Below are positions 23,950 to 53,234 of a DNA stretch of 64,000 nucleotides, one piece after another; within the stretch, counting starts at the first letter, position 1; every line of letters starts with the position of its first letter. The DNA is taken from contig NZ_PYFT01000001.1 of NCBI RefSeq assembly GCF_003023845.1, positions 372,001 through 436,000 on the forward strand, written 5' to 3'. The translations under genes and the position numbers were made by a program. The notes below the pieces were generated by a model. That model searched no databases and was not told where the DNA came from. It saw nothing but the letters and a program-made list of their open reading frames with translations. This DNA is from Adhaeribacter arboris (GTDB taxonomy: Bacteria; Bacteroidota; Bacteroidia; Cytophagales; Hymenobacteraceae).

Positions 23950-26900
23950 ATGTTCTCTACCGCCGAAAAAACCGTTAAATCCGCGCCCGCCATTCAACAG
24001 AAAGCGGCGGGTACCAGCTTCTTTAAGAAGGCGGGCGAGGAAGGTTTTTTCGGTGCTAAGGAAACGGCTAAACCAGAAAATGCTTCTTTCTTTAACGCTC
24101 CGGTGCAAGCCAAACTCAAAGTAAGCAGTCCGGACGACCCGCAGGAAAAAGAAGCCGATGCCGTAGCGGAACAAGTGATGCGGATGCCGGAACCCATAGT
24201 AAGTGCCTCGGTAGAAAATAAAAAGGAAGAAAAACTCGCTCGTAAAGAAGAGGAAGAAGTACAAAGTAAATCCGAAATTTCCGAAATTAATAGCATTCAG
24301 GCTAAAGAAGAACCCGAGCCCAAACTAGCAGCCAAGTTATCTTCCTCGGCTATAAAATTGGCCCGACAAGCCACCGAACAGCAGGAATCTAGTGGGAATA
24401 AGAGTGATACAGAATATGCGGTAAGCAGAAAAAATAACCCACTTTATCCTGCCAGTATCCTACAGCGTAGCGGACGAGGTTCGCCGCCGGGAGCAGCTCC
24501 GTTTGAACAAACCTTAGCTGCTTCGAAAGGGGAAGGCACAGCTATGCCCGATTCTACCCGGCAGTTTATGGAAAACCGTTTCCAGGCCGATTTCAGTGGC
24601 GTTCGCATTCATACAGGTTCAACGGCAGAGAGCTTAAGCAGCAGCATTCAGGCGCAGGCTTTTGCGCACGGCAACGATATTTATTTTAATAAAGGTAAGT
24701 TCTCCCCGGACTCTACTGCCGGCCGGACTTTGCTGGCTCATGAGCTTACCCACACCATTCAGCAGGGTGCCAGTAAAACGAATGTTCCTGCCGCTAAAAG
24801 GAGTTCGGTAGCTACTAAGAAAAGTTTTCCGTCTCCGGTAGTTTCCCGGTTACCTTCTAACTTATCTGCTGGTCAGGCAATCAGAGCACCGGAAGAGGCA
24901 AGTTGTCATCAGGAACCAAAAATTCAGCTAAAAGACGAAGCCGACCTAACACCTAAAAAAGCGCCGGAAATAGGTGCTTTACCAACAAAAACAGAATTAA
25001 GTACTTGGCAGGTAAACCACAAAGGTAAATTACAGCCAGCCGGGAATACTGCTGTTCCTGAACGAACCGCAATAGAAGAAATTCAGCCGAAAGAAGAAGC
25101 GCAGGAAAAAGAAAATGCAACGGATAGTTCGCCTCCCTTTCTTCAAAAACAACCAGTAGTCGAAACCCCGGCAATAAGCACAGCATTTAGGTCTGCTACA
25201 GAACCAAATAGTACTTTGTCGGTAGAACCAACTTCCATAGCGGTTCCTTCCATTTCTCCTACAAGTGCCCAGCCCATATCTGCTCCGGAAAATAGCTTAA
25301 GCTCGCGGGCGCCCCCCATTGGGCAGATTTCCCAAAATGCTAGCCAAAATGTAGTACAATGCGCTTTGTACGACAATGCTTTGGCGCGGGTAAGTGAATT
25401 TTTAACGGATTTACCCGGACTAGCCGATTTAGCGGACCCGAAAGGTTGGTTATTAGGTAAAGTACGGCAGTTTGCTTCGTATATTCCCGGTTACCGGGCT
25501 TTAGGTGTTATTCTGGGCCACGACCCTATCACGGGTCAGGAAATCCCCCGCAGTGGCCGCAACTTCCTGGAAGCAGGTTTAGACATTATTCCGGGCGGTA
25601 ATCTCTTAAAACAAAAATTAGAAGAACTAGGTATTCTGGAGCAGGCTGCCGCATGGATCGATACCCAAATTGATACCATAAAAGGCATTGTTGAAAGTGT
25701 CCGGTCAGAATTTACCAATGCCTGGAATGCCATTGATGCGGGCAGCATTCTGGATGGCCCGATGGCTATTGTCCGCAACCTTGGTAATATTCTCGAAAGA
25801 GCATTAAACAACATTATTGATTTTGCCCGCCGGGCCGCCGGCGAACTGCTCGATATAATAAAAAAATTCCTGCTCACCCACATTGTCAGCTTCATTAAAG
25901 AACATACTTCCGCCTACGAACTGTTAAAAGTTATTCTAGGGAAAGATCCGATAACCGATGAACCGGTAGAGCGCAACGGCACGAATATATTAAATGCCTT
26001 GCTGGAGCTAGGCGGCGAAGAAGGTCGGGAACAACGCAAACAAATGCAGGAAACCGGCACTTTCCAAAAAGCCGTCGCTTGGATCGACCGGGGTATTGCC
26101 GTGTTCGGCAATTTATACGCTACTATCCGCAGTAATTTTAATTTAATCTGGAATGTGGTATCCATTGAAAGCTTACTGCACCCGGTAGATACTTTCAATC
26201 GTATTTACGAAACCTTTGCCGCTCCTGTAAGGCAAGTGCTTGATTTTGTACGAGATGCCCTGGTAGCTATTCTAGGCTTTATTAAAGAAGCCTTAATGAG
26301 CCGCTTAAGTACCTGGGCCAAAACCGTAAAAGGCTACAGCTTGGTAACCGTTATTATCGGTAAAGATCCCTTTACCAACCAAACCGTTCCCCGCACCGTC
26401 GAAAATATGATTCATGGCTTTATGAGCCTCATGGACGGCGGGGAAGAACAATTTAATCAGATGAAGGAATCGGGTGCTATTGCCCGGGCCGAACAACGCG
26501 TGAAAGCAGCGGTAGATCGATTAAATATGACCCCGCAATATGTCGTGCAGTTGTTCCTGGATTTATGGAATTCTTTCAGCTTTGCCGACTTAGCCAATCC
26601 TATTGCCGCCTTCCAGCGGATATTAGACCGGTTCGGCGAACCTATTGGCCGTTTGATTGCCTTTGTGGTAGAAATTATCCGGATTGTAATAGATATTCTG
26701 CTGCAAGTCATGCAGTTCCCCACTGATTTAATTCAGAATATCGTGGCCAAGGCCATGCAGGCCATTGAGATGATTAAACGCGATCCGATTGGTTTCCTGA
26801 AGAATTTGCTGCGCGCTATTAAAGAAGGTTTCCTGCAATTTTTCGGCAATATCCTGACACATCTTTGGAATGGATTGAAAGCCTGGTTCCTGTCGGAGGT

Positions 26901-28851
26901 GCAAGCCGCCGGTATCCCGATACCTACCGATTTTACCGTGATGGGCATTATTAAATGGCTGCTGGCCGTGTTGGATGTTACCATGGATAAAATCTGGAAA
27001 AAGCTGGAAGAAAAAATTGGTAAAGAAAAAGTAGATAAAATTCGCAAGTTTATAGATAAAGCCGAGCAAATCGCGAATGCCGCCGGTGAGGCCTACGAAT
27101 TTGTGCAGGATGTACGTAAGCGGGGCTTTATGGTAGTTATCGTCGAAAAAATAAAAGAAAAGTTAACAAACGTGTGGGATTTGGTACTCGATTCGGTGAA
27201 AAGCTTTGTGATGGATCAGATTATAAATAAAGCCATCCAGAAGGTATTGAGCATGTTAGATCCTACCGGAATTATGGCCGTGATTAACAGCGCCATTGCC
27301 TTGTACAAAGCCATTCAAAGCTTTATTCGTTACTTGCGGCAAATGCTGGAAATTGTAAACTCGTTCGTGGAAGGAACCTTGGAAATTGCCAAAGGCGCCA
27401 CCAAAAAAGCCGCTAACTTCCTGGAAAATTCTTTGGGCCGCGGGGTCCCCATTGTTATTGGCTTCCTGGCGAACCAGATTGGCTTAAACCTGAGCAGTCG
27501 CCTGCGCGATGCCTTAACTACGGTACGGGAAAAAGTAGATGCCGGACTTACCTGGCTGATTGGTAAGTTGGTAACGATTGTGGAGAAGGTGGTGGAACTG
27601 GGAAGAGCAGCAGCGAAAGCCTTGTTAGAATGGTGGAAGGCCAAAACTAAATTTACAGCAGAAGATCAAGAAGAGCATACCATTTATTTTGAAGGAAGTG
27701 AATCAAATGCTACCCTGATTATTAGGAGTGAGCCTAAACCCTATACTAAGTTTTTAGATAAGTATGAAGAAGAGTTAGGTAGTCAGAAACTTACCAAAGC
27801 TCAAGAAAAAGCGCTGAGCGACGCTCGAAAGAAATCAAAAGAAATTGAAAGAAGACAGCAAGATGAAATTGGAGGAACCACAGACGCCCAAAAAGAGAAA
27901 AACAAACAAAAAAAAGCGGATGACATTCAAAAATTAGTGGATGAGTTAGGTGTTCTTTCTAAACCATTATTTGGTTCGGAAAAACCGAAGGATTGGGAAA
28001 TTAGCCATAATGGCGATGATTCAACATTTGCTACCAAAATGGAAGCTAAACGAATTTATAAAATAGCAGCTATTACGGATAAAGGCTCGGCTCCTACTAA
28101 GAAAGCGCACCCAATATTTGATAAGTTGGCTCTTCGAACCAAAGGTAATGGTTTTTACTATGTTAGAGGACACTTGCTAAATGACAATCTCGGTGGGCCA
28201 GGCCAGTGGAATAATATGACCGCCTTATCTATCAAAGGAAACAGCAATCATATTAGTTCAGTAGAAAGTTTAGTGAAAGCTGCCTTTGATATGAGCGCTG
28301 TGATTCACTACAAGGTAGAACCAAGAGGTACTCATGCCGCCAAAGTTCCAACCAGCAGGGATAAACCTAAGTTTACCCGTATCAGTGACATCGAACTGCA
28401 ATTTTCAAAAGTAAAGGATATTGTTACAGCGGAATCAAAGATCTGTAAGCAATTAAAATGTTCTGCCCATACCATGAAAAAGGAAGGAAATAAGTGGGTA
28501 GACGATAAAGAAATTGTGACTAGCACCGTGGATAATCCCATTGAAACCGATTATTCTACTTACGAAGTTGGGGATTCCATTCCGCTACCAACCGTTAATC
28601 TTACCACGGGAGCAAATAGAGCTAAATTGGCGGATGTAATTGATTTTAGCGGCAACAAAGCAAGTTTCGCGCAAAAAGTATGGAGAATGGTAGATCATAA
28701 AATTGAAACGACAGAAGTAGGATTTGGCACGTATGAAGGCTTGGCTAATTACCAAATAGTAAAAGGTGACGCGGTTGTTTTGAAATTTACAACTGCTGAG
28801 AAAAACTATATCAATGATGAGCTTAAAAATAACAAGAATGTTGTCTTATAA
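23950..28851 (+). CDS. DUF4157 eCIS cargo protein 1 with C-terminal DNA/RNA nuclease-like domain
   Basis: A 1633-residue protein. Residues 1-110 form a leader nearly identical to cargo 2 (FF-containing motifs, then DDPQEKEADAVAEQVMRMPEP). The DUF4157 domain (about 197-272) has an intact HELTH at 264-268. Residues about 450-950 contain three helical repeats of about 141 residues, each with an I/LG-x-DPxT motif (at 520, 661 and 801). A conserved HTIYFEG segment at 1243 precedes the variable end. That end contains RGH (H1408) and LGGPGQWNN...NSNH, the pattern of DNA/RNA non-specific (beta-beta-alpha metal) endonucleases. A putative immunity gene follows after 9 bases. It is probably loaded in the tube lumen. 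Confidence 0.82.
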   Translation: MFSTAEKTVKSAPAIQQKAAGTSFFKKAGEEGFFGAKETAKPENASFFNAPVQAKLKVSSPDDPQEKEADAVAEQVMRMPEPIVSASVENKKEEKLARKEEEEVQSKSEISEINSIQAKEEPEPKLAAKLSSSAIKLARQATEQQESSGNKSDTEYAVSRKNNPLYPASILQRSGRGSPPGAAPFEQTLAASKGEGTAMPDSTRQFMENRFQADFSGVRIHTGSTAESLSSSIQAQAFAHGNDIYFNKGKFSPDSTAGRTLLAHELTHTIQQGASKTNVPAAKRSSVATKKSFPSPVVSRLPSNLSAGQAIRAPEEASCHQEPKIQLKDEADLTPKKAPEIGALPTKTELSTWQVNHKGKLQPAGNTAVPERTAIEEIQPKEEAQEKENATDSSPPFLQKQPVVETPAISTAFRSATEPNSTLSVEPTSIAVPSISPTSAQPISAPENSLSSRAPPIGQISQNASQNVVQCALYDNALARVSEFLTDLPGLADLADPKGWLLGKVRQFASYIPGYRALGVILGHDPITGQEIPRSGRNFLEAGLDIIPGGNLLKQKLEELGILEQAAAWIDTQIDTIKGIVESVRSEFTNAWNAIDAGSILDGPMAIVRNLGNILERALNNIIDFARRAAGELLDIIKKFLLTHIVSFIKEHTSAYELLKVILGKDPITDEPVERNGTNILNALLELGGEEGREQRKQMQETGTFQKAVAWIDRGIAVFGNLYATIRSNFNLIWNVVSIESLLHPVDTFNRIYETFAAPVRQVLDFVRDALVAILGFIKEALMSRLSTWAKTVKGYSLVTVIIGKDPFTNQTVPRTVENMIHGFMSLMDGGEEQFNQMKESGAIARAEQRVKAAVDRLNMTPQYVVQLFLDLWNSFSFADLANPIAAFQRILDRFGEPIGRLIAFVVEIIRIVIDILLQVMQFPTDLIQNIVAKAMQAIEMIKRDPIGFLKNLLRAIKEGFLQFFGNILTHLWNGLKAWFLSEVQAAGIPIPTDFTVMGIIKWLLAVLDVTMDKIWKKLEEKIGKEKVDKIRKFIDKAEQIANAAGEAYEFVQDVRKRGFMVVIVEKIKEKLTNVWDLVLDSVKSFVMDQIINKAIQKVLSMLDPTGIMAVINSAIALYKAIQSFIRYLRQMLEIVNSFVEGTLEIAKGATKKAANFLENSLGRGVPIVIGFLANQIGLNLSSRLRDALTTVREKVDAGLTWLIGKLVTIVEKVVELGRAAAKALLEWWKAKTKFTAEDQEEHTIYFEGSESNATLIIRSEPKPYTKFLDKYEEELGSQKLTKAQEKALSDARKKSKEIERRQQDEIGGTTDAQKEKNKQKKADDIQKLVDELGVLSKPLFGSEKPKDWEISHNGDDSTFATKMEAKRIYKIAAITDKGSAPTKKAHPIFDKLALRTKGNGFYYVRGHLLNDNLGGPGQWNNMTALSIKGNSNHISSVESLVKAAFDMSAVIHYKVEPRGTHAAKVPTSRDKPKFTRISDIELQFSKVKDIVTAESKICKQLKCSAHTMKKEGNKWVDDKEIVTSTVDNPIETDYSTYEVGDSIPLPTVNLTTGANRAKLADVIDFSGNKASFAQKVWRMVDHKIETTEVGFGTYEGLANYQIVKGDAVVLKFTTAEKNYINDELKNNKNVVL

Positions 28852-28860
28852 TTAAAATCT

Positions 28861-29490
28861 ATGCTTATGGAATATAAACAAGTTATCAAAGATTTTAACA
28901 AGGAATTTACTTTGAATTTTAATTTGAACTATACGGATAAAACTTTATCTGAACCAAGTGAGAAGTCGAAAGATGTTCTGAAGAAAAACGGCAAGAATGT
29001 ACATTCATCCTTTATAAAATTTTATTCAGAAGTAGGATCTTATAGTCTGGATTGGCAAAATACCATTGAATTAGAAGCAGATGTAGCGGGTTCCGTTAAA
29101 ATACTGCAGCCGGAAAAAGTCTTATCAGATTGGAAAGAGGTAATTTATTTTGAGGACGATTCTTCTCTTAAGTACTTTAAGGTTTTTGATCAATTTAGTG
29201 AAGATGCTTGCTGCGGCTTTTATACGACAGAATCAAAGTCAGAACCGCACCATGTTTTGTATTACTATGATTTTCATAATGAAGCTTTTTCCTTGCATTT
29301 AGACCTGGAAGGTTATATTCAAATGATGATACTTTCAAAAGGGTTTTTATACTGGCAAAAAGTTTTGCTTGATTATCTAATGAAAAAGGAATCAGGAAAT
29401 ACAAAGTTGATGAAAAATAATCTGCATAAAGTATTTGAAGATTTTGATTTTAAAAATTTTATAGAAAAGTATAAAGCAATTAAACTATAA
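28861..29490 (+). CDS. SUKH (SMI1/KNR4)-like putative immunity protein
   Basis: A 209-residue soluble acidic protein. Its pattern is that of the SUKH superfamily: an F-x-x-FYSEVGSYSLDW segment at about 56-70, a GSVKILQPEKVLSDWKE segment at about 77-94, YFKVFDQFSEDACCGFY at about 103-120, and a late YIQMMILSKGFLYW helix. Many SUKH proteins are immunity proteins that bind nuclease toxins. The gene begins 9 bases after the nuclease-type cargo gene and ends 20 bases before cargo 2, a classical toxin-immunity arrangement. The alternative is a chaperone for cargo loading. The ATG at 28867 (codon 3) could also be the start. Confidence 0.6.
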   Translation: MLMEYKQVIKDFNKEFTLNFNLNYTDKTLSEPSEKSKDVLKKNGKNVHSSFIKFYSEVGSYSLDWQNTIELEADVAGSVKILQPEKVLSDWKEVIYFEDDSSLKYFKVFDQFSEDACCGFYTTESKSEPHHVLYYYDFHNEAFSLHLDLEGYIQMMILSKGFLYWQKVLLDYLMKKESGNTKLMKNNLHKVFEDFDFKNFIEKYKAIKL

Positions 29491-29510: not shown

Positions 29511-32500
29511 ATGTTCTCTACCACCGAAAAAACAAGTAAATCTACTCCCGCCATCCAGCAAAAAGCGGCGGATACCAGCTTCTTTAAGAAGACGGGCGAG
29601 GAAGGTTTTTTCGGTAGGAAGGAAACGGCTAAACCAGAGAATACTGCTTTCTTTAACGCGCCGGTGCAAGCCAAATTAAAAGTAAGCAGTCCGGACGACC
29701 CGCAGGAAAAAGAAGCCGATGCCGTAACGGCACAAGTGATGCGGATGCCGGAACCCGTAGTAAGTGCCTCGGTAGAAGAGAAAAAAGAAGAAAAACTTGC
29801 TCGGAGAGAAGAGAAAGAAGTTCAAAGGAACCCGGAAGAACCAACGGTAGTTCCCATTCAAGCCAAAGAAGAAGCGGAACCCAAACTAGCTGCTAAATTA
29901 TCGGCTACGGTTCAACGTTTAGCGCGTAAAGCCGCGGAACAGCAGGATATTTTGGGAAGTAAGGCCAATGCAGATTATACCGTTAATAGAAAAACCAGCT
30001 CGTATTATCCAGCAGAGATAGAACCGCATAGCGGTCGGGGTTCGCCAAATAACGTTGATAAATTTGAACAAACTTTAGCCGCTTCGAAAGGGGGAGGCAG
30101 TGCCTTGCCCAATTCTACCCGGCAGTTTATGGAAAATCGCTTTGGGGCGGATTTCAGTGGCGTACGGATTCATACAGGTTCAACGGCAGAAAACTTAAGC
30201 TCCAGCATTCAGGCGCAGGCTTTTGCGCACGGCAACGATATTTATTTTAACCAAGGTAAGTTCTCCCCGGATTCTGCTTCAGGCTGCACTTTACTGGCGC
30301 ATGAGCTTACCCACACCATTCAGCAAAATTCCAGTTATAAAAATAAAAATATCTCTACCAAACAAACTGCTCAGGCTATTTCAACTAGCAAACTTGCCTT
30401 GCCTTCACAAGCAAGCTTAGTTACAAAACGGGAAATTTCCAGAAAGCAAAGTGATTTATTATATCGGGCACCGGCAGCCGAAACTTCTACTTCTCAATCA
30501 ACTGAAACTGTAGATATATCCAATAAATCAGGAGGTTCGCCTTTACCTGCCGACGCCCAAGAATTTTTTCAGGATTCGTACGGAGCCGATGTGCGTGATA
30601 TCCGTGTGCATGTAGATGCCGAAGCCGCCGCTATCTGCCGGGCCCGGCGGGTTCCGGCTTTTACCCAAGGAGGGCATATTTGTTTCGAACCAGCGCGGTA
30701 TGCCCCAACTACCGAAGAAGGTGGAGCCTTACTGGCGAAACAGGTGTCTCATTCCTTAGCGCAGCGGTCTGTTGCCATTCCCGGTTTACTAAACCAGATT
30801 AATACCGCCCGGCAAGCCGACCATTCGACCAGTGCTCCCGCTAAAAGTAAGCAACCCGAAAACAAGGAACGTACAACCGCAAAAGATAAAAATAAAGCCG
30901 CGTCCAAAGAAAAAGAAGTAAAACCAGCAAAAGGTGTTAGCGTTAAACCCAAGGGCAAACGCCGGCCCAATCAATTGGATGGTCCACCGGTGAAATCCGT
31001 TAAGGCTAATCCCAAGAAATCACCTACTACTCCCGAAGAAGACCCCGCTTTTCAAAAAGCCGTAGGCAAAGCAAAAGCCGCCGCGAAAAATCAAAAACAG
31101 CACGAACCCGCCGACGCCAAAGCGACGGATGCCCAAAAAGCAGCCCCGGCGGCGCCAAAAGAAGCAGAAAGCAAAGCGCAAGAAAGAAAAACCGGTGGCC
31201 TGGATGCGGCCGGAAAAAACGAAAAACCTTTTGATGAAAAATCTTTTAAAGCAGATTTGCTAAAGAAAATTGAGGAAATAACCCCTGAAACCTTAGAGGA
31301 AGCCACCGAATTTAAAGAAAATAATAAAATTGGGGAAGTCAAAAATGTAATGGGAGAAAAAGTCTCTCACGAAAAACAAGCCACCACCGGTCCGGTAACG
31401 CAGGCAGCGGAACAACCCTTGCAAGTAAACGAGGCTGATTCTAAAAAACCTCTGCCTTTGCCGCCTACGCATCCGGGAACAATCCCGGGTAAACCAGTTG
31501 CCCAGGACGCAGCACCAAAACCAAAATTGAACAACGAAATTTCTCTTCAGGAACAAAGTAAATCTTTAGATGATGAGATGAAAGCTCATAACGTTACCGA
31601 AGAGCAATTAACTAAGAGTAACGAACCCAGTTTTGCCGCCGCGCTCTCTGAAAAAAAAGGCGCCCAAAAAGATGCCGCCGAAAAACCGCAACAGTACCGC
31701 AAAGCCGAAGGTTTACTCCTGAACCAGGCCAAGGCTACTGTGCAGGCAGAATCCATTCGTTCGGTAACAAGTATGCATACTGCCCGGGGTAAAAATTTCA
31801 ATGCTGTTGTTCAGCATCAGCAAACTACTAAACAAAAAGACCAGGAACGCCGGGCTGCCGTAGCCAAAGAAATTGAAGCTAAATACGCCGCGACGGAAGA
31901 AAAAGTAAAAAAAGCTTTAGAAGCGGCTGATACCGAGTCGAACCAACTATTTGAGGCGGGTTCGGAAGCTGCTCGCAAAGAATTTGAAGATTATGTGGCC
32001 GAAAGAATGAGCGCCTATAAACGGCGGCGCTACTCCGGCTTTTGGGGTGGTTTACGCTGGGCGAAAGATAAAATCTTTGGGATGCCCGATGAGGTAAACG
32101 CGTTTTATACCCAAGGCCGGCAATTATACCTGAACAAAATGGATCAGGTAATTACCCAGGTAGCGCATACAGTTACCACCAAGCTGAACGAAGCCAAGCA
32201 AGCCATTACCGACGGAAAAAAAGCCATCGACGAGTATGTGAGTCAGTTGCCCAAAGACTTGGTTGAGGTAGGGAAAGAAGCTGCCTCTACTATCCAGGAT
32301 AAATTCGAGGCGCTGGAACAAAGCGTGAATGACAAGCGGGACGAGTTAATAGAGGGCTTGGCTAAGAAATACGTGGACAATGTAAAAAAGCTGGACGACC
32401 GCATTACCGAAATGAAGGAAGCCAATCAAGGCCTGATTGATAAGGCCATCGGCTTCTTGAAGAAAGTCTGGCAGATAATAAAAGATTTGACCAATTTGTT

Positions 32501-34385
32501 TACCAGTATTTTTGCCAAATTAGCCTCTATTATTGGTGTAGTGCTGAGCGACCCGGGTGGTTTCTTCGATAACCTGGGCAAAGCATTTAGCCTGGGCTTC
32601 AACAATTTCAAAAAGAATTTCTTAGGTTACCTGGAACAAGGGTTAATGGATTGGCTGAAAACTAACTTAGGCATTGCCGGTCTAGAAATTCCCAAAAAAT
32701 TTGATCCGGCCGCTATTTTCAGTTTGGCTTTGCAGGTAATGGGCATTACCAAAGAACACATTCGGGAAAGAGCGGTGGCCTTGCTCGGCAAAAGAAAAGT
32801 AGAGTTGCTGGAGGGCGGCGGCGAATTGTTAGCCCGAATTTACAAGGAAGGTTTAGGCGTTATCTGGGATATCATCTACGAAAAGCTCCGCGATTTTAAA
32901 GAAATAGTGTGGGAAGCCATTAAATCTTTCCTGCAAACCAAAATAATTGAAGCCGCCCTCACCTTCTTATTAAGCATGCTGAATCCAATAGGCGCTTTTA
33001 TAAAAGTGTGCATGGCCATTTACGATTTTCTGATGATGCTCGTCCGGTTTAAAGACCGCATTATGGAATTATTGGATACCATTTTAAACGCCGTAACTAA
33101 TATTGCCTCCGGTGCCATTGATGGAGCGGCCAAAGCTATTGAAGGCGCCTTTGCTAAATCTATTCCGGTTATTATTGGTTTCCTGGCCGCCCTCTTGCAT
33201 CTGAACGATATTGCCGCCAAAATAAGAGACATTATTATGCGCGTAAAAGGTAGAGTAGAAAAAGCTATTGATTGGGTTTTGCAAAAAGCAGTTGGGTTAG
33301 TGAAAGGAGTAGGAGGAGCCGTAAAAACAGGAGTGAAAGGATTGCTAAACTGGTTAGGTCTGCGGAAAACTTTTACCAGCGGCACCGCTACTCACACTAT
33401 TTACTTTGCTGGTAACCCTGAAAATCCAGAGTTAATGATTGCCACTAATCCTAAAACCTTTGCGCAAGCCGTAACCGACAGACGGACGGAATTGAGTAAT
33501 GATGATACCATGGACCGGAGTAAAAAAAGTAATTTCCGGAGAAAACTTACCGACGCCGAGAAAACTTATACGGCTATGAATGTACTTAAAGATAGCCTGA
33601 AACAATCCACGGATGAAAAGGAAAAATCGGCTACGCAACGAGAAGTATTCCGGCTAGTAGATAAGATTATAGAAATATTGGTCGAAGTGGGCGTAACCGA
33701 ACACGACGTGAAACGCGAAGTACTTACGGCGCCGGTGCAGGTAGGTGATTTTGTAAAACAAGGCAGCAAGGAGTACGAAATAAAAGAATTAAATGATGCC
33801 GAACAAAGAGTAAAAGCTTTATACTTGGCGGAAGCGGGTGGTACCGCCAACTTTTTATATATCGATTACGGTAAAAGTTACAGCAAAATTCCGCAACCTT
33901 CTCAAATGCCGGTGGACGAGAAATTCCTGAAGTTAAATGCTCAAACGGCCTGGGATTCGTACGCGGAGGCCAACAAAGTGTTGAACTACCGCCGAAGCGG
34001 CTTCCAGCTGAATAACGATGATAATTACCAATGGGAACATACCGTAGAACACAGCACCTTGCGAAATGGTATATTCTCCTCGCGACAAGTTAATTCTCAA
34101 ACGAATTTAGCCTGGGCTTCCACTTCGATTAACCAGGAAGTTAACCGGCTTTATACCACTTACGACCGAAGTAAAATTGATTTTTTACCTAATAACTTAA
34201 AATCCCGGCTTAAAAGACCGAATGACCAGGGAATAGACGAACTGATAAGTATCCGGGAGTATCTTTTGCTAAGCCGGAATTTTGCCGAGCACGAAGAGTT
34301 TAAACGAGCTTATTACCGTTCAAAAGGAGTTTCGGTTAAACCCGGTACTTCTAAGGGCTTTGGCTTTTACCAAGTATTGAGTTAG
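29511..34385 (+). CDS. DUF4157 eCIS cargo protein 2, two DUF4157 copies, unknown C-terminal domain
   Basis: A 1624-residue paralogue of cargo 1. The leader (1-110) and first DUF4157 domain (HELTH at 264-268) are almost the same. A second DUF4157-like domain follows (about 340-420) in which the zinc motif has decayed to KQVSH (410-414). Next comes a Lys/Ala/Pro-rich linker (about 430-700), coiled-coil and helical regions (about 720-1270), and the HTIYF segment at 1295 also found in cargo 1. The end is unrelated to cargo 1 and contains WEH followed by EH (near 1508) and a conserved-looking NSQTNLAW. A nuclease or other His-based enzyme is possible but unproven. No immunity gene follows. Confidence 0.75.
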   Translation: MFSTTEKTSKSTPAIQQKAADTSFFKKTGEEGFFGRKETAKPENTAFFNAPVQAKLKVSSPDDPQEKEADAVTAQVMRMPEPVVSASVEEKKEEKLARREEKEVQRNPEEPTVVPIQAKEEAEPKLAAKLSATVQRLARKAAEQQDILGSKANADYTVNRKTSSYYPAEIEPHSGRGSPNNVDKFEQTLAASKGGGSALPNSTRQFMENRFGADFSGVRIHTGSTAENLSSSIQAQAFAHGNDIYFNQGKFSPDSASGCTLLAHELTHTIQQNSSYKNKNISTKQTAQAISTSKLALPSQASLVTKREISRKQSDLLYRAPAAETSTSQSTETVDISNKSGGSPLPADAQEFFQDSYGADVRDIRVHVDAEAAAICRARRVPAFTQGGHICFEPARYAPTTEEGGALLAKQVSHSLAQRSVAIPGLLNQINTARQADHSTSAPAKSKQPENKERTTAKDKNKAASKEKEVKPAKGVSVKPKGKRRPNQLDGPPVKSVKANPKKSPTTPEEDPAFQKAVGKAKAAAKNQKQHEPADAKATDAQKAAPAAPKEAESKAQERKTGGLDAAGKNEKPFDEKSFKADLLKKIEEITPETLEEATEFKENNKIGEVKNVMGEKVSHEKQATTGPVTQAAEQPLQVNEADSKKPLPLPPTHPGTIPGKPVAQDAAPKPKLNNEISLQEQSKSLDDEMKAHNVTEEQLTKSNEPSFAAALSEKKGAQKDAAEKPQQYRKAEGLLLNQAKATVQAESIRSVTSMHTARGKNFNAVVQHQQTTKQKDQERRAAVAKEIEAKYAATEEKVKKALEAADTESNQLFEAGSEAARKEFEDYVAERMSAYKRRRYSGFWGGLRWAKDKIFGMPDEVNAFYTQGRQLYLNKMDQVITQVAHTVTTKLNEAKQAITDGKKAIDEYVSQLPKDLVEVGKEAASTIQDKFEALEQSVNDKRDELIEGLAKKYVDNVKKLDDRITEMKEANQGLIDKAIGFLKKVWQIIKDLTNLFTSIFAKLASIIGVVLSDPGGFFDNLGKAFSLGFNNFKKNFLGYLEQGLMDWLKTNLGIAGLEIPKKFDPAAIFSLALQVMGITKEHIRERAVALLGKRKVELLEGGGELLARIYKEGLGVIWDIIYEKLRDFKEIVWEAIKSFLQTKIIEAALTFLLSMLNPIGAFIKVCMAIYDFLMMLVRFKDRIMELLDTILNAVTNIASGAIDGAAKAIEGAFAKSIPVIIGFLAALLHLNDIAAKIRDIIMRVKGRVEKAIDWVLQKAVGLVKGVGGAVKTGVKGLLNWLGLRKTFTSGTATHTIYFAGNPENPELMIATNPKTFAQAVTDRRTELSNDDTMDRSKKSNFRRKLTDAEKTYTAMNVLKDSLKQSTDEKEKSATQREVFRLVDKIIEILVEVGVTEHDVKREVLTAPVQVGDFVKQGSKEYEIKELNDAEQRVKALYLAEAGGTANFLYIDYGKSYSKIPQPSQMPVDEKFLKLNAQTAWDSYAEANKVLNYRRSGFQLNNDDNYQWEHTVEHSTLRNGIFSSRQVNSQTNLAWASTSINQEVNRLYTTYDRSKIDFLPNNLKSRLKRPNDQGIDELISIREYLLLSRNFAEHEEFKRAYYRSKGVSVKPGTSKGFGFYQVLS

Positions 34386-34534: not shown

Positions 34535-35815
34535 ATGAAACTAGCTTATGCCCGTCGTTATCGCCGCCCGGTATCCCGATCCCGGGAAACCGCCAAAAAA
34601 GACAACCAACAGGAGCCCGCTTTTTTTGCGGCCCCTTCGCCTCAGAGCTTCTTTAAACCAAATGCAGCCCTTCAACGGAAATGTGACCATTGCGCAGCCG
34701 AAGACAAAAAAGTAAGGCGCCAAACCGATGTAAAGGAAGAAAAGAAACTCCAAAAAATGAGCGACAAAAAAGAAGAGGAGAAAAAACTGCAAAAAATGAC
34801 GGATAAGAAAGAAGAAGAAAAAAAGATTCAAAAGGTAGAAGAGAAAAAAGAAGAAAAGAAACTGCAAAAACAGGACGAGAAAAAAGAAGAAAAGACCTTA
34901 GCTAAAAAAAACGAGGCGCCCGAGGAAAAGAAATTAGATAAAAAAGAAAGTAATACATCTACTACTGCTTTAGCCCAAACCAGTAATTATGTGGCTTCGC
35001 TTGGCAGCAAAGGCAGCGCTTTGCCCGCCGAAACGCAGCAGTTTTTTGCTCAGCGCATGGGTTACGATTTTAGCCAGGTAAGAATCCATACCAATACTGA
35101 AGCCGAACAATCCGCCAAAGATATGAACGCGAAAGCGTATGCGGTAGATAATCATGTCGTGTTTAATCAAGGGCAATACAATCCGAATTCGCAGGCAGGA
35201 AAAAAACTATTGGCCCACGAGCTTACCCACGTGGTGCAGCAAAAGAATAATAACCAGGAACTGGTAAGCAGAGCTACCGAAAAAGCCTTGAATCGAATGG
35301 CCGAAAGCCAAACTAGCAGCAGTAACGGTAAGGCAACAAATACCCCAAATAAAATTGCCTACGGTTGCGAAGGAGTAGAGGTAGAAGGTAAAACCGAAGC
35401 CAACTATACCGATTCGTATACTTCTACGGGCACCACCACGCCCTCCACGAAGTGTGAAGATTGTCCCGATGACTGTGTTTCGGCGAATGGTAACGTACTA
35501 TCGGACTTTAAAGCTAACCCGGTGGTTACGTTGCCGGATGTGCCCGATGGTTTAAGCGAATGCGAAACTAAAGCCGTGGCTAAATTCATTAACACCACCC
35601 TAAAGAACCACGAATTAAAGCACGTGGCCGCGTTTAAGACCTATAATGGCAAGGTAAAAACCCCTTATAAGTACCTGGGCTGTCAGAGTGGACTGGACGC
35701 GCATATTCAATCCATCCACGAAGATTTAAATACCAAACGAACAGAAGCGGCCAACGCCAAAAGCGACAAACTAGACCCATTTCATCCGACAATTCCCTGT
35801 AAATGCGATGAGTAA
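34535..35815 (+). CDS. DUF4157 cargo protein 3 with a second HExxH motif
   Basis: A 426-residue protein. The N-terminus carries a FF-containing leader and a CDHC motif (about residues 50-53), then a long Lys/Glu-rich repeat (about 65-140) of the type KKEEKKLQK that should form a charged helix. A DUF4157 domain with HELTH at 228-232 follows. The C-terminal part has two CxxC-like pairs and a second zinc-protease-type motif HELKH at 359-363, reminiscent of DUF922-like peptidases. It could be a protease effector or a processing enzyme for the larger cargoes. It lies between cargo 2 and the AAA+ ATPase gene. Confidence 0.75.
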   Translation: MKLAYARRYRRPVSRSRETAKKDNQQEPAFFAAPSPQSFFKPNAALQRKCDHCAAEDKKVRRQTDVKEEKKLQKMSDKKEEEKKLQKMTDKKEEEKKIQKVEEKKEEKKLQKQDEKKEEKTLAKKNEAPEEKKLDKKESNTSTTALAQTSNYVASLGSKGSALPAETQQFFAQRMGYDFSQVRIHTNTEAEQSAKDMNAKAYAVDNHVVFNQGQYNPNSQAGKKLLAHELTHVVQQKNNNQELVSRATEKALNRMAESQTSSSNGKATNTPNKIAYGCEGVEVEGKTEANYTDSYTSTGTTTPSTKCEDCPDDCVSANGNVLSDFKANPVVTLPDVPDGLSECETKAVAKFINTTLKNHELKHVAAFKTYNGKVKTPYKYLGCQSGLDAHIQSIHEDLNTKRTEAANAKSDKLDPFHPTIPCKCDE

Positions 35816-36027: not shown

Positions 36028-37383
36028 ATGTCAAACGTGCTTCACCCTGAAATAGTCGCCCCGCATGCTCTGGAAAAGATGATTACTGACTTACGCCAGA
36101 TCATTATTCAACGGTTAGAATCTTATTTTCAGCAAAATTCTTTAGCTTTTGATCATTGGTTAACGCAGAATTACTCAAATATCTTAGCGAGACATGAGAT
36201 CATCCGGCTAATACCCCAATTAAAAACAACGGAGGAATATTTTGTACTGCTACTGGCTTTAGTGCCCCATTTGCAGCCCAATTTCTTTGAGACCATTATG
36301 GCGGAACATTTACCCACTGGCGGCGACTTTCCGGAGTTTGGCGGCGTAAAAGGAACCAATCATCGGGGTATTCTGCCTACCGGCGAAACCGCGCAATTTA
36401 TTTTGGGCGGCACGGACATTAGCAAGCGGCTGGTCGTTCAGGCTTTGTTCGACGAGCAGCATTTTTTTTATCAAAACGATATTATCTGGTTAGAATCGGT
36501 GCGGGAAGGAGAGCCCAGCATGAGCGGCCGGATTATCTTAGCGCTGGAATGGGTAAATACTCTGTTAAGCGGTACCGATGTAAAACCAAAATTCAGCCCC
36601 GATTTTCCGGCTAAATTGGTGCAAACGAAAATGAATTGGGACGACCTGGTATTGCATCCTTTCACGGCCGAACAAATAGAAGATATCAAGCGTTGGTTTC
36701 GCTACCATGCTATTTTGGAGACGGATGCCAACTTGTCGCGAAAAATTAAACAAGGCTACCGGGTCTTATTTCACGGGCCGCCCGGTACGGGCAAAACCCT
36801 CACCGCCGGTCTCATGGGCAAAGAATTTAACAAAGATGTGTACCGCGTGGATTTATCGCAGATAGTATCTAAATACATCGGCGAAACCGAAAAAAACCTG
36901 AGCAAAATTTTTGACCGAGCCGAACACAAAGATTGGATTTTGTTTTTCGACGAAGCGGATGCCTTGTTCGGTAAACGGACGAACGTTCAAAGCTCCCACG
37001 ATAAATACGCTAACCAGGAAGTATCTTTTTTATTGCAACGGGTCGAAGATTTTGGGGGATTACTCATTTTGGCCTCGAATTATAAAGCCAACATGGACGA
37101 AGCCTTTCTTCGTCGTTTTCATTCCATCGTGCATTTCCCGATGCCCAACGCGCAGGAACGCTTAAAACTGTGGCAGCAATCGCTTCCAACTTCTATCCAA
37201 TTTCATAACCAACTAAACTTAGCGCAACTAGCCGATGCCCACGAATTAAGCGGCGCTTCTATCCTCAATATCGTGCAATTTGCCTCCCTCAAAGCTCTAA
37301 GCCGTCCCGACCAAACCCTGTACCAGGAAGATTTGCTGCTCGGTATTCGCCGGGAATTCCGCAAAGAAGAAAAATCGGTTTAA
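36028..37383 (+). CDS. AAA+ ATPase of the eCIS (Afp15/Pvc15-like)
   Basis: A 451-residue ATPase. An N-terminal family-specific region (1-225) precedes an AAA+ module with Walker A GPPGTGKT (250-257), Walker B FFDEAD (D308, E309) and a sensor/arginine-finger region ending in DEAFLRRFHSIVHFP. In Afp- and PVC-type systems this ATPase is needed for particle assembly or cargo loading and is not part of the finished particle. It is the last gene of block 1. The 793-base gap that follows contains the second palindromic promoter. Confidence 0.9.
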   Translation: MSNVLHPEIVAPHALEKMITDLRQIIIQRLESYFQQNSLAFDHWLTQNYSNILARHEIIRLIPQLKTTEEYFVLLLALVPHLQPNFFETIMAEHLPTGGDFPEFGGVKGTNHRGILPTGETAQFILGGTDISKRLVVQALFDEQHFFYQNDIIWLESVREGEPSMSGRIILALEWVNTLLSGTDVKPKFSPDFPAKLVQTKMNWDDLVLHPFTAEQIEDIKRWFRYHAILETDANLSRKIKQGYRVLFHGPPGTGKTLTAGLMGKEFNKDVYRVDLSQIVSKYIGETEKNLSKIFDRAEHKDWILFFDEADALFGKRTNVQSSHDKYANQEVSFLLQRVEDFGGLLILASNYKANMDEAFLRRFHSIVHFPMPNAQERLKLWQQSLPTSIQFHNQLNLAQLADAHELSGASILNIVQFASLKALSRPDQTLYQEDLLLGIRREFRKEEKSV

Positions 37384-38176
37384 ACCTGGATATTCTCCTT
37401 ACTTGAAAGTAAATCTGGAAGAGATTAATTATTTTAATTTTTACAGAATTTCAATGAAGTTGGACTTATAATTTAAGAAGCTTATTAGAGAAGTCAGAAC
37501 TATTAAGTCGTCTGTTGAGAAAGCTGGCGCGAGCGTCTCCGCTCGTGTCTACTATTGGGGTCTCTGGCCGGGCGAACCAGAATACCTTTTATAGAACTTA
37601 AAATAATATTTTCTACGAACAAGAAGCCAGAAAACTTATCACGGTCGCATCAATTTATTTCATCTCTTCTTCCCAATGAGATCTACAATCTACTTAGTTT
37701 AAAAATTGCCTACTAAGTCACTATCCTATAGTTCGCCTCAACATTACCTAGTACAAGCAATTGATAATTAAGAGAATGTACCCGGTATTATATTAGACTT
37801 ACCCAAAAAATACTGAAAAATCAGTATTTTTTTCTGCTTCGCCACCTTGTACCTTAGCAGTATTAAAGGTAAAGGCAAAACAGCAGTATAGTAATGAAAG
37901 CTTAGCTGTTTCTTTTCCCTAGAACACCCCGAAGCTCAGAATTCGAGTCTTTTTTATTCCGTTTTACTCTTTGTTTCTCCTACTATTATGAAGCATTTTT
38001 CTAACCCGGGTAGTTTTTCTTTCTCGAACAGTTCCTGATTATCGGCTAACCTAAATGTAATTCATGCGGGCTATTCGGCCTCTTTCAACAGTTTTCAACT
38101 GATGCGGCTATTCTTTTGCCTCATCCCGAACAAAGTAATTGTCTCAAATTTAATTCACCATACTAATTCATGAAAA
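37384..38176. other. 793-base intergenic region between the eCIS blocks
   Basis: Holds a single REP-like palindrome half (CGCGAGCGTCTCCGCTCGTG at 37528-37547, followed by a GGCCGGGC segment) and the palindromic promoter at 37811-37857. The remaining 320 bases up to the sheath gene form a long leader with no clear gene. Confidence 0.5.
37811..37857 (+). promoter_or_regulatory. eCIS block 2 promoter with palindromic operator
   Basis: The palindrome TACTGAAAAATCAGTA at 37811-37826 is identical to the one at 19585-19600, with TACCTTAG starting 23 bases after its end (37850-37857). Here the palindrome is extended by an A-tract and a T-tract, so on its own it could also act as a terminator for block 1. 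The conserved spacing favours an operator. Confidence 0.65.
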
Positions 38177-39778
38177 ATGGCAACCACAAGTTATAAAACG
38201 CCCGGGGTTTACATAGAAGAAATAACCACCTTGCCGCCGTCGGTGGCTGAAGTGGAAACGGCTATCCCCATCTTTATTGGTTACACCGAATTAGGTACCC
38301 GCAACGATCCTACCCGTATTTCTTCGCTGGTCGAGTACCAGGATTATTTTGGATTCGGGGAACTGGAGCGCAGTATTTCGGTAACCGTAGAAAAAAATGC
38401 CAATAACCCGCTGGAAGCAAGAGTAATTGGCGTATCCATTGATCCGGCGGCTAAATCGAGAAATGTATTGTACTACGCTTTGCAGCTGTACTTTGCCAAC
38501 GGGGGCGGGCCTTGTTACATTGTTTCCACGGGTACGTACCCGGATAGCGCCAATAATCCCCGCGAAGCTTACGGCGAAGCGCTAAGGGCTAGCTCGAAAG
38601 AAGACGAGCCTACATTATTGGTTTTTCCGGATGCACCATTCCTGCTGAACCCCGATGATTATTACAGCCTCATGAACGATGCGCTTTTAGAGTGCTCCCG
38701 TTTAGGCGACCGGTTTACTATTGTGGATGTACTGAATGTGAATGGCGATACCCAAGCCTCAGTTGCCGCTTTCAGAGACCGCATTTCGGCTAATTTAACG
38801 GAAACAAAATACGGAGCCGCTTATTACCCTTATTTAAATACCAGTTTGGATTACCGCTATAATCCGGAAGATGTAACCGTGCTGTTAGCTGGTGATGATA
38901 CCGCGGCCCGGGCCGTGGAAGATTCCCGCCAAAGTGCGATAGTAGCCCGGCGCGACGCCGATAGCGCCCGCGCCGAAGCTGACCGGCTGAAACAAGCCGC
39001 GGATGCGGAGGGAGCGGATGCCGCGGCCAAAAAAGCTTTCACGGAAGCCGACCGCCGGGCGAAAGACCTGGAAGGCAAAGCTACCACCGCCCAGGCCGCC
39101 GCTGATGCCGCCGGCAAAGCAGTTAGCCGGCAAACCTGGCAAGATCAGAATAATGCCGTGCAAAACCAGATAAAAAAATTGATTAGCAACCTGGGGGTTC
39201 AACTAACTCCCTGCGCGGCGGTGGCGGGCGTGTACGCCGGGGTAGATAGTACCCGGGGCGTCTGGAAAGCGCCGGCCAACGTGAGTTTAAATTATATTAC
39301 CTCCACCGCGGCCCGGATCACCGACGAAGACCAGCGGGATTTAAATATTGATGTGGTGGCCGGTAAATCCGTGAATGCCATCCGCTCTTTTGTGGGCATG
39401 GGTACTAAAATTTGGGGCGCCCGCACGCTAGCCGGTAACGATAACGAATGGCGGTACGTGAATGTGCGCCGGTTCTTTAACATGGTCGAAGAATCGATTA
39501 AAAAATCGACGTACTGGGCTGTTTTTGAACCGAATGATATTAATACCTGGGTGCGGGTACGGGCCATGATCGAGAATTACCTGCTGTTAAAATGGAAAGA
39601 CGGCGCCCTGGCCGGAGTAAAACCCGACGATGCTTTTTACGTGCGGGTGGGCTTAGGCACTACCATGTCGCCGATGGATATTTTAGAAGGCCGGATGATT
39701 ATTGAAATTGGTTTAGCCGCGGTACGGCCGGCTGAATTTATCATTATCCGCTTCTCGCATTTTCTTCAAAAATCATAA
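38177..39778 (+). CDS. contractile tail sheath protein with inserted Ala-rich helix
   Basis: A 533-residue sheath subunit. The N-terminus TPGVYIEEITTLPPSVAEVETAIPIFIG and the C-terminal domain (VRRFFNMVEESIKKSTYWAVFEPND onwards, about residue 430) are typical of eCIS and phage sheath proteins. The core motif AVAGVYAGVDSTRGVWKAPAN is intact. Between LLAGDD (240) and the core, about 78 residues are inserted that are rich in Ala, Asp, Lys and Arg and should form a surface helix or coiled coil. Only one sheath gene exists here, unlike the three of the Serratia Afp. It is the first gene of block 2. Confidence 0.92.
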   Translation: MATTSYKTPGVYIEEITTLPPSVAEVETAIPIFIGYTELGTRNDPTRISSLVEYQDYFGFGELERSISVTVEKNANNPLEARVIGVSIDPAAKSRNVLYYALQLYFANGGGPCYIVSTGTYPDSANNPREAYGEALRASSKEDEPTLLVFPDAPFLLNPDDYYSLMNDALLECSRLGDRFTIVDVLNVNGDTQASVAAFRDRISANLTETKYGAAYYPYLNTSLDYRYNPEDVTVLLAGDDTAARAVEDSRQSAIVARRDADSARAEADRLKQAADAEGADAAAKKAFTEADRRAKDLEGKATTAQAAADAAGKAVSRQTWQDQNNAVQNQIKKLISNLGVQLTPCAAVAGVYAGVDSTRGVWKAPANVSLNYITSTAARITDEDQRDLNIDVVAGKSVNAIRSFVGMGTKIWGARTLAGNDNEWRYVNVRRFFNMVEESIKKSTYWAVFEPNDINTWVRVRAMIENYLLLKWKDGALAGVKPDDAFYVRVGLGTTMSPMDILEGRMIIEIGLAAVRPAEFIIIRFSHFLQKS

Positions 39779-39806
39779 TCGCTAAAACTTTTTATAAAGA
39801 TAAAAT

Positions 39807-40241
39807 ATGGCAGCATATCCCTTAGCCGTCTTTCACTTTCGGGTAGAATGGGGCGGCAAAAATGTTGGTTTTTCCGAAGTTTCCGGTCTCACGCAAGAAG
39901 CCCAGTTAATTGAATACCGCGACGGCAGCAGCAACGATTTTTCCACGATTAAAATGCCCGGCTTGCGCAAATACAATAATATTACCCTGAAGCGGGGGGT
40001 TATCAAAGGCGATAACGATTTCTTTACCTGGTTAAAAACCGTGAGCAATTTAGGTACGGTGGAGCGGCGCGATTTAACCATTAACCTGCTGAACGAAAAT
40101 CATGAACCGGTAATGGTCTGGAAAGCGCATAATTGCTGGCCGGTAAAAGTAGAGGGTCCGGGTTTAAAAGCGAATGGCAACGAAGTAGCCGTTGAATCCA
40201 TCGAAATTGCTCACGAAGGGGTAACCCTGCAAAACGACTAA
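39807..40241 (+). CDS. inner tube protein 1 (gp19-like)
   Basis: A 144-residue protein of the T4 gp19-like tube family. It opens with YPLAVFHFRVEWGGKNVGFSEVSGLTQEAQLIEYRDG, has the GLRKYNNITLKRGV motif at about 50-65 and ends in VAVESIEIAHEGVTL. Rings of this protein form the rigid tube driven through the target membrane, with cargo in the lumen. It starts 28 bases after the sheath stop and is probably the bulk tube subunit, being next to the sheath gene and of the Afp1-like type. Confidence 0.92.
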   Translation: MAAYPLAVFHFRVEWGGKNVGFSEVSGLTQEAQLIEYRDGSSNDFSTIKMPGLRKYNNITLKRGVIKGDNDFFTWLKTVSNLGTVERRDLTINLLNENHEPVMVWKAHNCWPVKVEGPGLKANGNEVAVESIEIAHEGVTLQND

Positions 40242-40284
40242 GTTAACCGAATGTAGTTGACTTAAGCGTGCTTTTCTCAGAATT

Positions 40285-40725
40285 ATGGCTGCATATTATC
40301 CCCCGGTAGGTTTTCATTTTAAAGTAGATATACCAGGGGTGGGGGCGGGCGATAAAGACATGCGGTTTCAGGAAGTGACCGGGTTAACCGCGGAGATAGG
40401 AGTGGAGGAATTAACCGTAGGGGGCGAAAACCGGTTTACCTACCGTTTACCTACCCGCGCCAAATACGCCAATGTAGTATTAAAGCGCGGCATGTTAAAC
40501 GACTCCGGCTTGATTAAATGGTTCCGGAACGCAATCGAAAACTTTGAATTTCAGCCGGTTGATATTAGTGTTCATTTGCTGAATGAAAAACACGAGGTGC
40601 TCAGTTCCTGGGAATTCCGGCAAGCGTATCCGGTTAAATGGGTAATTTCTGATTTTAAAGCTTTGGAAAATTCTATAGTGGTAGAAACCATCGAACTGGC
40701 TTACCAATACTTTTCCCGGAAATAG
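40285..40725 (+). CDS. inner tube protein 2 (gp19-like)
   Basis: A 146-residue second tube protein, clearly related to the first but diverged (FHFKVDIPGVGAGDKDMRFQEVTGLTAEIGVEELTVGGEN, then RAKYANVVLKRGML). In eCIS particles a minor tube paralogue (Afp5-like) usually forms the first ring and connects tube to spike complex; that role is inferred here. It is followed by a REP-like palindrome in the gap before the DUF5908 gene. Confidence 0.9.
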   Translation: MAAYYPPVGFHFKVDIPGVGAGDKDMRFQEVTGLTAEIGVEELTVGGENRFTYRLPTRAKYANVVLKRGMLNDSGLIKWFRNAIENFEFQPVDISVHLLNEKHEVLSSWEFRQAYPVKWVISDFKALENSIVVETIELAYQYFSRK

Positions 40726-40803
40726 GTTTCAAGGTTTGAAAGTTGAAAAGTTGGAAGGTTAGCAAGTTAGAAAATTAGGTGGTTTTAAAACGATTATTCC
40801 TAT

Positions 40804-40943
40804 CGCGAGCACGCTTCGCTCGTGATGCCCATCGTCCGGCCTCTGGCCGGTAGTAAATTGTTGCTGAATTGATTTGAGAAAGATTTATCGTTTTGCCCGG
40901 CCAAAGGCCTACCAGATGGTAGCTACGAACGAAGACACTCGCG
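40804..40943. repeat. REP-like palindromic doublet A
   Basis: A 140-base element whose ends are inverted relative to each other (CGCGAGCACGCTTCGCTCGTG at the left, ACGAACGAAGACACTCGCG at the right). The inner segment CATCGTCCGGCCTCTGGCCGG is shared with the 139-base element at 56273-56411. Confidence 0.8.
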
Positions 40944-41056
40944 CCAGCTAAGCGGCATAGTTTAATAAAATTTGACCATGGTTCCAACGGAATCAACCTG
41001 CAACTTGTAACCTGCAACCTTCAAACCTTTTAACCTTTAAACTTTCTAACTAAAAA

Positions 41057-41230
41057 ATGCCGGTACAGATTAATGAGATGATTATTCGGGCCAACATTAC
41101 GGAGAGCGCGGTTCCTGAAAAAAAAGGAGGGAATGCCCCCGCCGCTCCGGCCGCGGTAAATAAAGACGAAATAGTTCGGGAGTGCGCCGCCTTAGTTCTG
41201 GAAATGCTCAACGATAAAAAGCAACGGTAA
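41057..41230 (+). CDS. DUF5908 small protein
   Basis: A 57-residue protein. It begins MPVQINEMIIRANITE and ends in a helix KDEIVRECAALVLEMLNDKKQR, the DUF5908 pattern seen as a tiny gene between tube and LysM-adaptor genes of Bacteroidota contractile injection loci. The function is unknown; an assembly chaperone or small tail component is plausible. Its stop overlaps the start of the next gene in a TAATG junction, so translation is coupled. Confidence 0.8.
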   Translation: MPVQINEMIIRANITESAVPEKKGGNAPAAPAAVNKDEIVRECAALVLEMLNDKKQR

Positions 41231-41946
41231 TGGCCGAAACCAACTTAAAAATAATTGCTTACGGCAAGCCCAAAGACAGCGATCCGTCGAAAGAAATCGG
41301 CAGTTTTTCGGTGGATTTTAACCCGAACACGTTTGCGGTCAGCAATAAAATTGAGTACAAGCAACCCGACGCCAAAGGACAAACCGGCGGCGATCCGGTT
41401 TTTGAGAAAATCCCGCCCCTAGAGTTTAGTTTGGAGTTTACCATCGATGGCACCGGCGTAGCCGTGGGGAATTTATCGCAGGAAAAGAAAAACGACTTTA
41501 AAAGCAAAAAACACGATTACGTAAAAACGCAGATTAGCAAATTACGGGAAGTGACCGGCAGCGGTATTAACGGCGATATTCACCGGCCCAATTACCTGGC
41601 TTTGTTGTGGGGTACGTTTCGGTTGGAATGTGTTATTACCGCTTTAAATATCACTTATAATCTTTTCGATGCCGATGGAACGCCCTTACGCGCCAAAGTT
41701 ACCTGCAATTTTCTGGAACGGATTGGTCCCGGGAAAGGTGGCCGGCAATCGAGGCTCGAATCGCCGGACCTCACCAAATACCAGGTGGTGCGCGAAGGCG
41801 ATATTTTACCGCTAATTGCGCGCAACAACTACGAAGATTCAACTTATTATTTACAGTTGGCCCGGGTAAACAAACTCAAAAATTTTAGAAACCTACCCCC
41901 CGGCGTAACCTTAGTATTGCCCCCAATGATCGAGAAAGATGCCTAA
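41230..41946 (+). CDS. LysM-domain tail adaptor (Afp7-like)
   Basis: A 238-residue protein. Residues 1-180 form the gp53/Afp7-like adaptor part (ETNLKIIAYGKPKDSDPSKEIGSFSVDFNPNTFAVSNKIEYK). The C-terminus is a LysM domain (YQVVREGDILPLIARNNYEDSTYYLQLARVNKL, about 182-215). In this family LysM helps join the spike hub to the tube rather than bind peptidoglycan. It is translationally coupled to DUF5908 upstream and overlaps the spike gene by 8 bases downstream. Confidence 0.88.
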   Translation: MAETNLKIIAYGKPKDSDPSKEIGSFSVDFNPNTFAVSNKIEYKQPDAKGQTGGDPVFEKIPPLEFSLEFTIDGTGVAVGNLSQEKKNDFKSKKHDYVKTQISKLREVTGSGINGDIHRPNYLALLWGTFRLECVITALNITYNLFDADGTPLRAKVTCNFLERIGPGKGGRQSRLESPDLTKYQVVREGDILPLIARNNYEDSTYYLQLARVNKLKNFRNLPPGVTLVLPPMIEKDA

Positions 41947-43708: not shown

Positions 43709-44139
43709 TTGGAAGGTTGGAAAGTGGAATGGTTTAAAAGTTACAGGTAAAAACGTTGGAGTTTATAAGGTTTTAAGAACTTATTGATAAACTCAAATTA
43801 TTGATCTGAAATAGCTAGCAGTAAAAACCAAAAATTTCTGTTCCTCCTAAACTTAGGGGGAGAGCTTTATAAACAATTACCATATACTAATAATAAACTG
43901 TATGTACAAATATGAAAGATTTAATCAGCAATATTTTACTCAGACTGGCTGGTAAACGATTAACCTTAGCCACATGTAGAGCCTGACGATTTAGTGTTTG
44001 AGCGGGGTGAGTTGAAAATGTACCGTAAGACTTATTAAGCTTTAAAGAGAACAGGTTTTAAATAGAAATGCCGCCTCTCCTTTCCTGTTTTTAGGGGAGG
44101 TTCCGCAGGGGGAGGGGTCAAACCTTAATAAACAAAAAA
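43709..44139. repeat. repeat-bearing gap between spike and PAAR genes
   Basis: Contains a 7-base-period GTTGGAAG tract at the left end, a hairpin CCTCCTAAAC/TTAGGGGGAG near 43845-43863, and a C-rich/G-rich pair (CCTCTCCTTTCC and GGGGAGG...GGGGGAGGGG) at about 44070-44120 just before the PAAR gene. The last two look like parts of one dispersed repeat. No gene is seen. Confidence 0.5.
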
Positions 44140-44430
44140 ATGCCTTTTGCCGCCAGAATTACCGATATGCATACTTGTCCCATGGTAACCGGTTTGGTTC
44201 CGCACGTGGGTGGACCCATTTTGCCACCCGGTAACCCAACGGTATTTATTGGGGGCTTACCGGCTGCTACGGTGGGAGATATGCTGGTTTGTGCCGGCGG
44301 TCCCGATTCAATTATTAAAGGTTCGGCTACGGTGCTCATTGGGAAAAAGCCGGCGGCGCGCATGGGCGATAATACCGCGCACGGGGGAATAATAGTATTG
44401 GGTTGTGTAACCGTAAACATTGGAGGTTAA
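44140..44430 (+). CDS. PAAR-domain spike tip protein (Afp10-like)
   Basis: A 96-residue PAAR protein. It shows the repeated short Gly-rich strands and metal-binding residues (ITDMHTCPM, GLVPHVGGPILPPGNPTVFIGGLPAAT, CAGGP, GDNTAHGG). PAAR proteins cap the spike with a sharp zinc-stabilised cone. There is no effector extension. It lies 3 bases before the gp25 gene. Confidence 0.94.
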   Translation: MPFAARITDMHTCPMVTGLVPHVGGPILPPGNPTVFIGGLPAATVGDMLVCAGGPDSIIKGSATVLIGKKPAARMGDNTAHGGIIVLGCVTVNIGG

Positions 44431-44433
44431 ACG

Positions 44434-53227: not shown

Positions 53228-53234
53228 GCGCGCG

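Follow-up and report, generated by a model that had tools for sequence, protein, structure and literature searches.

The stretch analysed here (the window) comprises 64,000 nucleotides of the 7.25 Mb genome of Adhaeribacter arboris (bases 372001–436000 of contig C1) and carries an extracellular contractile injection system (eCIS) locus, in which the gene for a putative nuclease cargo is directly followed by one for a predicted SUKH-fold protein. The features listed in this paragraph lie on the + strand and are given in window coordinates. The open reading frame (ORF) of cargo 1 (23950..28851) encodes 1633 amino acids. It contains an eCIS core (DUF4157) domain at residues 199–274 (24544..24771; PF13699, E 1.4e-30) with the motif HELTH at residue 264, a pre-toxin stretch at about residues 951–1300 (26800..27849) with 25–36% protein identity to cargo 2, a predicted DNA/RNA non-specific nuclease fold at residues 1346–1532 (27985..28545), and a C-terminal tail behind the nuclease (28546..28848). 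Nine bases separate the cargo 1 stop from the ATG of the neighbouring ORF (28861..29490; 209 amino acids, isoelectric point (pI) 5.6, G+C 29.8%), which encodes a putative immunity protein. Domain matches identify, further downstream, cargo 2 (29511..34385), in which the eCIS core domain occurs twice, then a third eCIS-core protein of 426 amino acids (34535..35815) and the eCIS structural genes (36028..56102), including those for an AAA ATPase, the sheath, two tubes, a CIS tube protein, baseplate V, gp25 and the tape measure.

The PF13699 match and the position of cargo 1 among eCIS structural genes identify it as an eCIS cargo; the genome has four eCIS core matches, all of them within this locus. 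Cargo 1 also gave PT-TG pre-toxin matches. Its architecture is that of a polymorphic toxin, constant at the N-terminus and variable at the C-terminus: cargo 1 and cargo 2 share 65–93% DNA identity over residues 1–250, while protein identity falls to about 20% or less over residues 1401–1600, and their C-termini are unrelated. The C-terminal domain of cargo 2, with EH and N-rich motifs, gave no Pfam match over the cut-off and no plasmid match. The gene after cargo 2 encodes another eCIS-core protein that is not immunity-like, in contrast to the situation of cargo 1 in the same locus.

The C-terminal domain of cargo 1 holds R1406-G1407-H1408, N1422, N1431 and H1434, the residues on which the first-pass annotation had based its reading of a nuclease-type cargo, and the further evidence bears this reading out. 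In an alignment of 25 rows that we picked from nuclease loci (A6), H1408, N1422, N1431 and H1434 are invariant, and the last histidine is missing in a few rows of the wider nuclease list (e.g. L086 and L101). PF13930 (Endonuclea_NS_2) was matched by all 14 members of the domain alignment and its cut-off was reached by six of the ten whole relatives checked (L058, L066, L078, L099, L125 and L033); cargo 1 itself stays under it (16.7 and 21.3 bits vs 27). The predicted model of the domain has the beta-beta-alpha metal fold of DNA/RNA non-specific endonucleases and matches EndA, NucA and EndoG; among the PDB matches listed for it, the best 36 entries are all non-specific nucleases of the same fold. 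The pI exceeds 8 in 18 of 25 nuclease parts. In one relative (L066), the tail behind the nuclease scores as a helix-hairpin-helix (HHH_3).

The neighbouring gene matched no Pfam or NCBIfam model. The Pfam SUKH models (SMI1_KNR4, SUKH-4, SUKH_5, SUKH_6 and others) matched none of 23 family members (the gene and 22 relatives) at E values up to 5, and three members touch the YrhA family NF038335, with E 0.013 at best. Its AlphaFold model (pLDDT 93) nevertheless has the SUKH fold, as the first-pass annotation had proposed, and shares it with Knr4 and YobK as well as with Tdi1, Tdi2 and RhsPI, which are immunity proteins against nucleases. Comparison of the family by hhalign with 39 SUKH sequences gave 73–88% (null at most 1.8%), comparison with 28 sequences only 28–44%, and the SUKH-4 profile gave nothing. 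Searches by sequence returned no sensible match in the PDB and none in PHROGs or the phage collection. Going by the predicted fold, the neighbour belongs to the SUKH superfamily and lies outside its named Pfam families. All 23 partner proteins are acidic (pI 4.3–5.6). The solved structures of YobK, Tdi1, Tdi2 and RhsPI show 9–14% identity to the neighbour in the aligned parts; the PDB entry titles give Tdi1, Tdi2 and RhsPI each a toxin partner. These three partners are nucleases, and YobK pairs with a toxin of the LXG type. The partners of Tdi1, Tdi2 and RhsPI are toxins of the type VI secretion system or Rhs toxins, not eCIS cargos.

A species scan gave 100 confirmed candidates, of which the best 80 were kept; these represent 79 distinct nuclease loci, some of them on the same contigs as other fetched loci (e.g. 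L080/L036, L096/L038 and L101/L039). A gene of the partner family stands directly behind the nuclease in 20 of the 79 (19 intact) and is absent from 56, and three loci end too early. The paired loci comprise 12 from Bacteroidota, four from Cyanobacteriota, three from Actinomycetota and one from Chloroflexota (L122), in which both nuclease and partner look degraded; none of the 14 Pseudomonadota loci has the partner behind the nuclease. The pair was also found on a Streptomyces plasmid, with 45 bases between the genes and an eCIS-core domain upstream of the nuclease in the same toxin; no eCIS structural genes are listed within 24.6 kb there, in a gene table that is incomplete. A scan covered 41 family ORFs. 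Of the 30 that lie outside L012–L015, 28 follow such a nuclease, most of these 30 having been chosen for their nuclease. The other 11, in L012–L015 (genomes G023, G015 and G027), have no adjacent nuclease. These four loci, in genomes of the same family as the window's, carry one to five family genes each and are candidate orphan immunity islands. When 345 genomes were searched with a profile to which nuclease-linked members had contributed most of the sequences, four proved to contain the family, that of A. arboris included, with five ORFs: four stand directly behind such a nuclease, and a small ORF separates the fifth from the nuclease-like fragment that precedes it. In two cargos from this search (L171 and L172), the nuclease at the end belongs to more distant subfamilies.

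Could the neighbour stand where it does by chance, or have arrived as an orphan between the genes for cargo 1 and cargo 2? Its low G+C and the family members that occur without an adjacent nuclease would suit such an origin. However, the same gene order recurs in 20 of the 79 loci (one degraded) across several phyla, and again on the Streptomyces plasmid, and we rejected this explanation as highly improbable.

Several related loci show variants of the arrangement. At L050:2377-11484, another eCIS locus from a genome of the same class as the window's, a cargo with this kind of nuclease precedes a Pfam-recognized SUKH_6 gene (36.8 bits vs 27), and another cargo comes next, an order that matches that of the window with a different SUKH family. 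A 408-amino acid protein, seemingly two copies of the neighbour's domain, lies behind a nuclease-ended cargo at L172:8600-9826. A single protein of 2651 amino acids at L098:492-8447 combines two eCIS core matches with a tandem pair of nuclease motifs, and at L084:100-3628 an upstream cargo is split over two overlapping ORFs, the second nuclease-like and followed by a family member.

A protein encoded next to a cargo might instead serve as its loading chaperone or adaptor. The tight coupling of the neighbour to an eCIS cargo gene would be expected of such a protein, and adaptors are common in related machines. Partner divergence, however, goes with nuclease divergence (partial r 0.59, 0 of 2000 permutations) rather than with divergence of the eCIS core domain (partial r 0.15, p 0.096), as measured in the 16 of 21 pairs with a recognizable eCIS core; in 10 non-redundant pairs, the values are r 0.45 (p 0.0035) for the nuclease and r 0.08 (p 0.33) for the core, although the core stretch is shorter and hence noisier, which favours the nuclease-tracking outcome. 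Moreover, three solo nuclease cassettes (L078, L088 and L051) start in the pre-toxin stretch, lack the eCIS core and yet have a partner of their own, as in classical polymorphic toxins; none were seen in the window. The neighbour is also missing from 56 of the 79 loci that have this nuclease, and its predicted fold is that of nuclease immunity proteins. Both points speak against a loading role, which we consider very improbable and rejected. The neighbour is most likely an immunity protein, and the suggestion of the first-pass annotation that the nuclease is accompanied by its own immunity gene most likely holds, given the fold, the recurrence of the pair and the co-divergence of the partner with the nuclease.

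Comparable pairs are known from other systems. EsaD and EndA/NucA share the nuclease fold and are delivered by other means; EsaG, the immunity protein of EsaD, is not known as a SUKH protein. Zhang 2012 (PMC3482391) described PVC-metallopeptidase toxins as polymorphic, and its Tox-NucA row, for nucleases of the HNH/EndoVII type with GH, N, N and E residues, lists PVC among the export routes and Imm-SUKH among the immunity proteins. This is one of the closest likenesses to the pair described here, although the row pools routes and immunity types and does not state that any PVC case has a SUKH partner; as a further difference, the present partner clade lies outside all Pfam SUKH models. By the same paper's account, the PVC systems without immunity genes are 'a notable proportion', not all. 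Geller 2021 (PMC8213781) reported eCIS toxin-immunity pairs for the first time, including a single rescue experiment, and called the lack of immunity genes for most antibacterial eCIS toxins an intriguing mystery. Its EAT5 pair, a RES-like toxin with an Xre-like antitoxin, resembles ours in that an eCIS-linked toxin has an adjacent immunity gene, for which rescue was shown in E. coli; it differs in the toxin, of RES type (NADase), and in the immunity gene lying upstream of it. The premise of the first-pass annotation that known eCIS carry no immunity genes was thus too strong, pairs having been implied in 2012 and one shown in 2021, and the statement of a 2023 review (PMC10598620) that immunity proteins to antibacterial eCIS toxins had yet to be identified conflicts with Geller 2021. 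For background on eCIS cargos, see Danov 2024 (PMC11297309) and the AlgoCIS paper (PMC8894135). AlgoCIS likewise has two DUF4157 cargos, Cgo1 and Cgo2, with similar N-termini and differing C-termini, and Cgo1 inhibits the growth of E. coli; its C-terminus is, however, a predicted metalloprotease, and the word immunity is absent from the main text. Among the openly licensed papers listed in our literature searches, none was concerned, judging by its title and the start of its abstract, with an eCIS nuclease that has a SUKH partner. The string SUKH in one match with CIS in its title (PMC12998442) proved to be part of an author's name.

The anatomy of the locus, the two predicted folds, the recurrence of the pair and the co-divergence of the partner with the nuclease, all computed here, make it very probable that cargo 1 is an eCIS polymorphic nuclease toxin and that the downstream gene encodes its SUKH-fold immunity protein. 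The pair is well supported and of a known kind; its partner family has no name and recurs in several phyla. For catalysis, binding and neutralization by this particular pair, we infer the following course. The constant N-terminus, which holds the eCIS core domain, would serve to load cargo 1 into the particle, the pre-toxin stretch lying between this part and the C-terminal nuclease. In an injected cell, the EndA/NucA-type nuclease (beta-beta-alpha metal) would cut nucleic acid, with H1408 as the general base. The acidic SUKH-fold protein would bind the nuclease in the cytoplasm of the maker while the cargo is made and loaded, and would also guard sister cells hit by particles.

An immunity gene implies that the toxin can harm its maker and says nothing about whom the particle is fired at. 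As a tentative reading, the target cells would most likely be other bacteria. It is also conceivable, though less likely, that immunity serves the maker only, the particle being aimed at eukaryotic or distant cells and the neighbour silencing a generally toxic nuclease during production and loading. The nuclease that MACs inject kills eukaryotic cell lines (PMC8213781). Any maker of a nuclease that lacks species bias would have to keep it silent. On the other side, this nuclease is encoded in 56 of the 79 loci with no such partner behind it, so that silencing by the partner is not a general requirement, and the partner genes in G015, G023 and G027, which have no nuclease beside them, fit a defence against the toxin of others.

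The toxin domain was found in none of 58 other genomes sampled from the genus, family and order. Because of this absence, of the low G+C of the partner (29.8%) and of the last 33 residues of cargo 1 (30%) relative to the window (42.6%), and of the divergence pattern of cargos 1 and 2, the cargo tip and its partner were probably acquired together. On a weak nuclease tree (81 rows, 78 of them labelled, and 147 columns; L122 and the false-motif row L111 were left out), nucleases with and without the partner are intermingled. The partner label changes 15 times, against a shuffled mean of 18.8, with 13 of 500 shuffles as low, and only four changes are required by branches with good support. By eye, nucleases with and without the partner alike have the GH and Asn residues, and in 12 partnerless loci an eCIS ATPase gene starts within 400 bases.

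An Amidase_2 gene (20960-21535) just upstream of the Pvc16-like gene is weakly similar to phage endolysins and is possibly a particle release or lysis gene. Between Pvc16 and cargo 1, a protein of 459 amino acids (22440-23819) has PEGA and CBM_5_12 matches at sub-threshold level only. Behind the eCIS genes (56570-61644) lies a row of vWA, PP2C-phosphatase and kinase-like (below cut-off) genes, possibly a phosphorylation switch.

Neither Pfam nor NCBIfam has a name for the partner family, so annotation overlooks the partner genes. The solo cassettes with partners of their own suggest that eCIS cargos evolve by swapping tips, as classical polymorphic toxins do. Tentatively, eCIS nucleases of different phyla could have their dedicated immunity partner in the unnamed SUKH clade, and the cargos could be cassette-swapping weapons of kin discrimination, the presence or absence of the partner marking, locus by locus, whether the system fires at related bacteria or at others. 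As one nuclease family occurs with the partner (20 of 79 loci) and without it (56 of 79), intermingled on one tree, it allows a comparison of one toxin chemistry in the presence and absence of immunity, and the partnerless loci make testable the question of why many eCIS toxins need no immunity protein.
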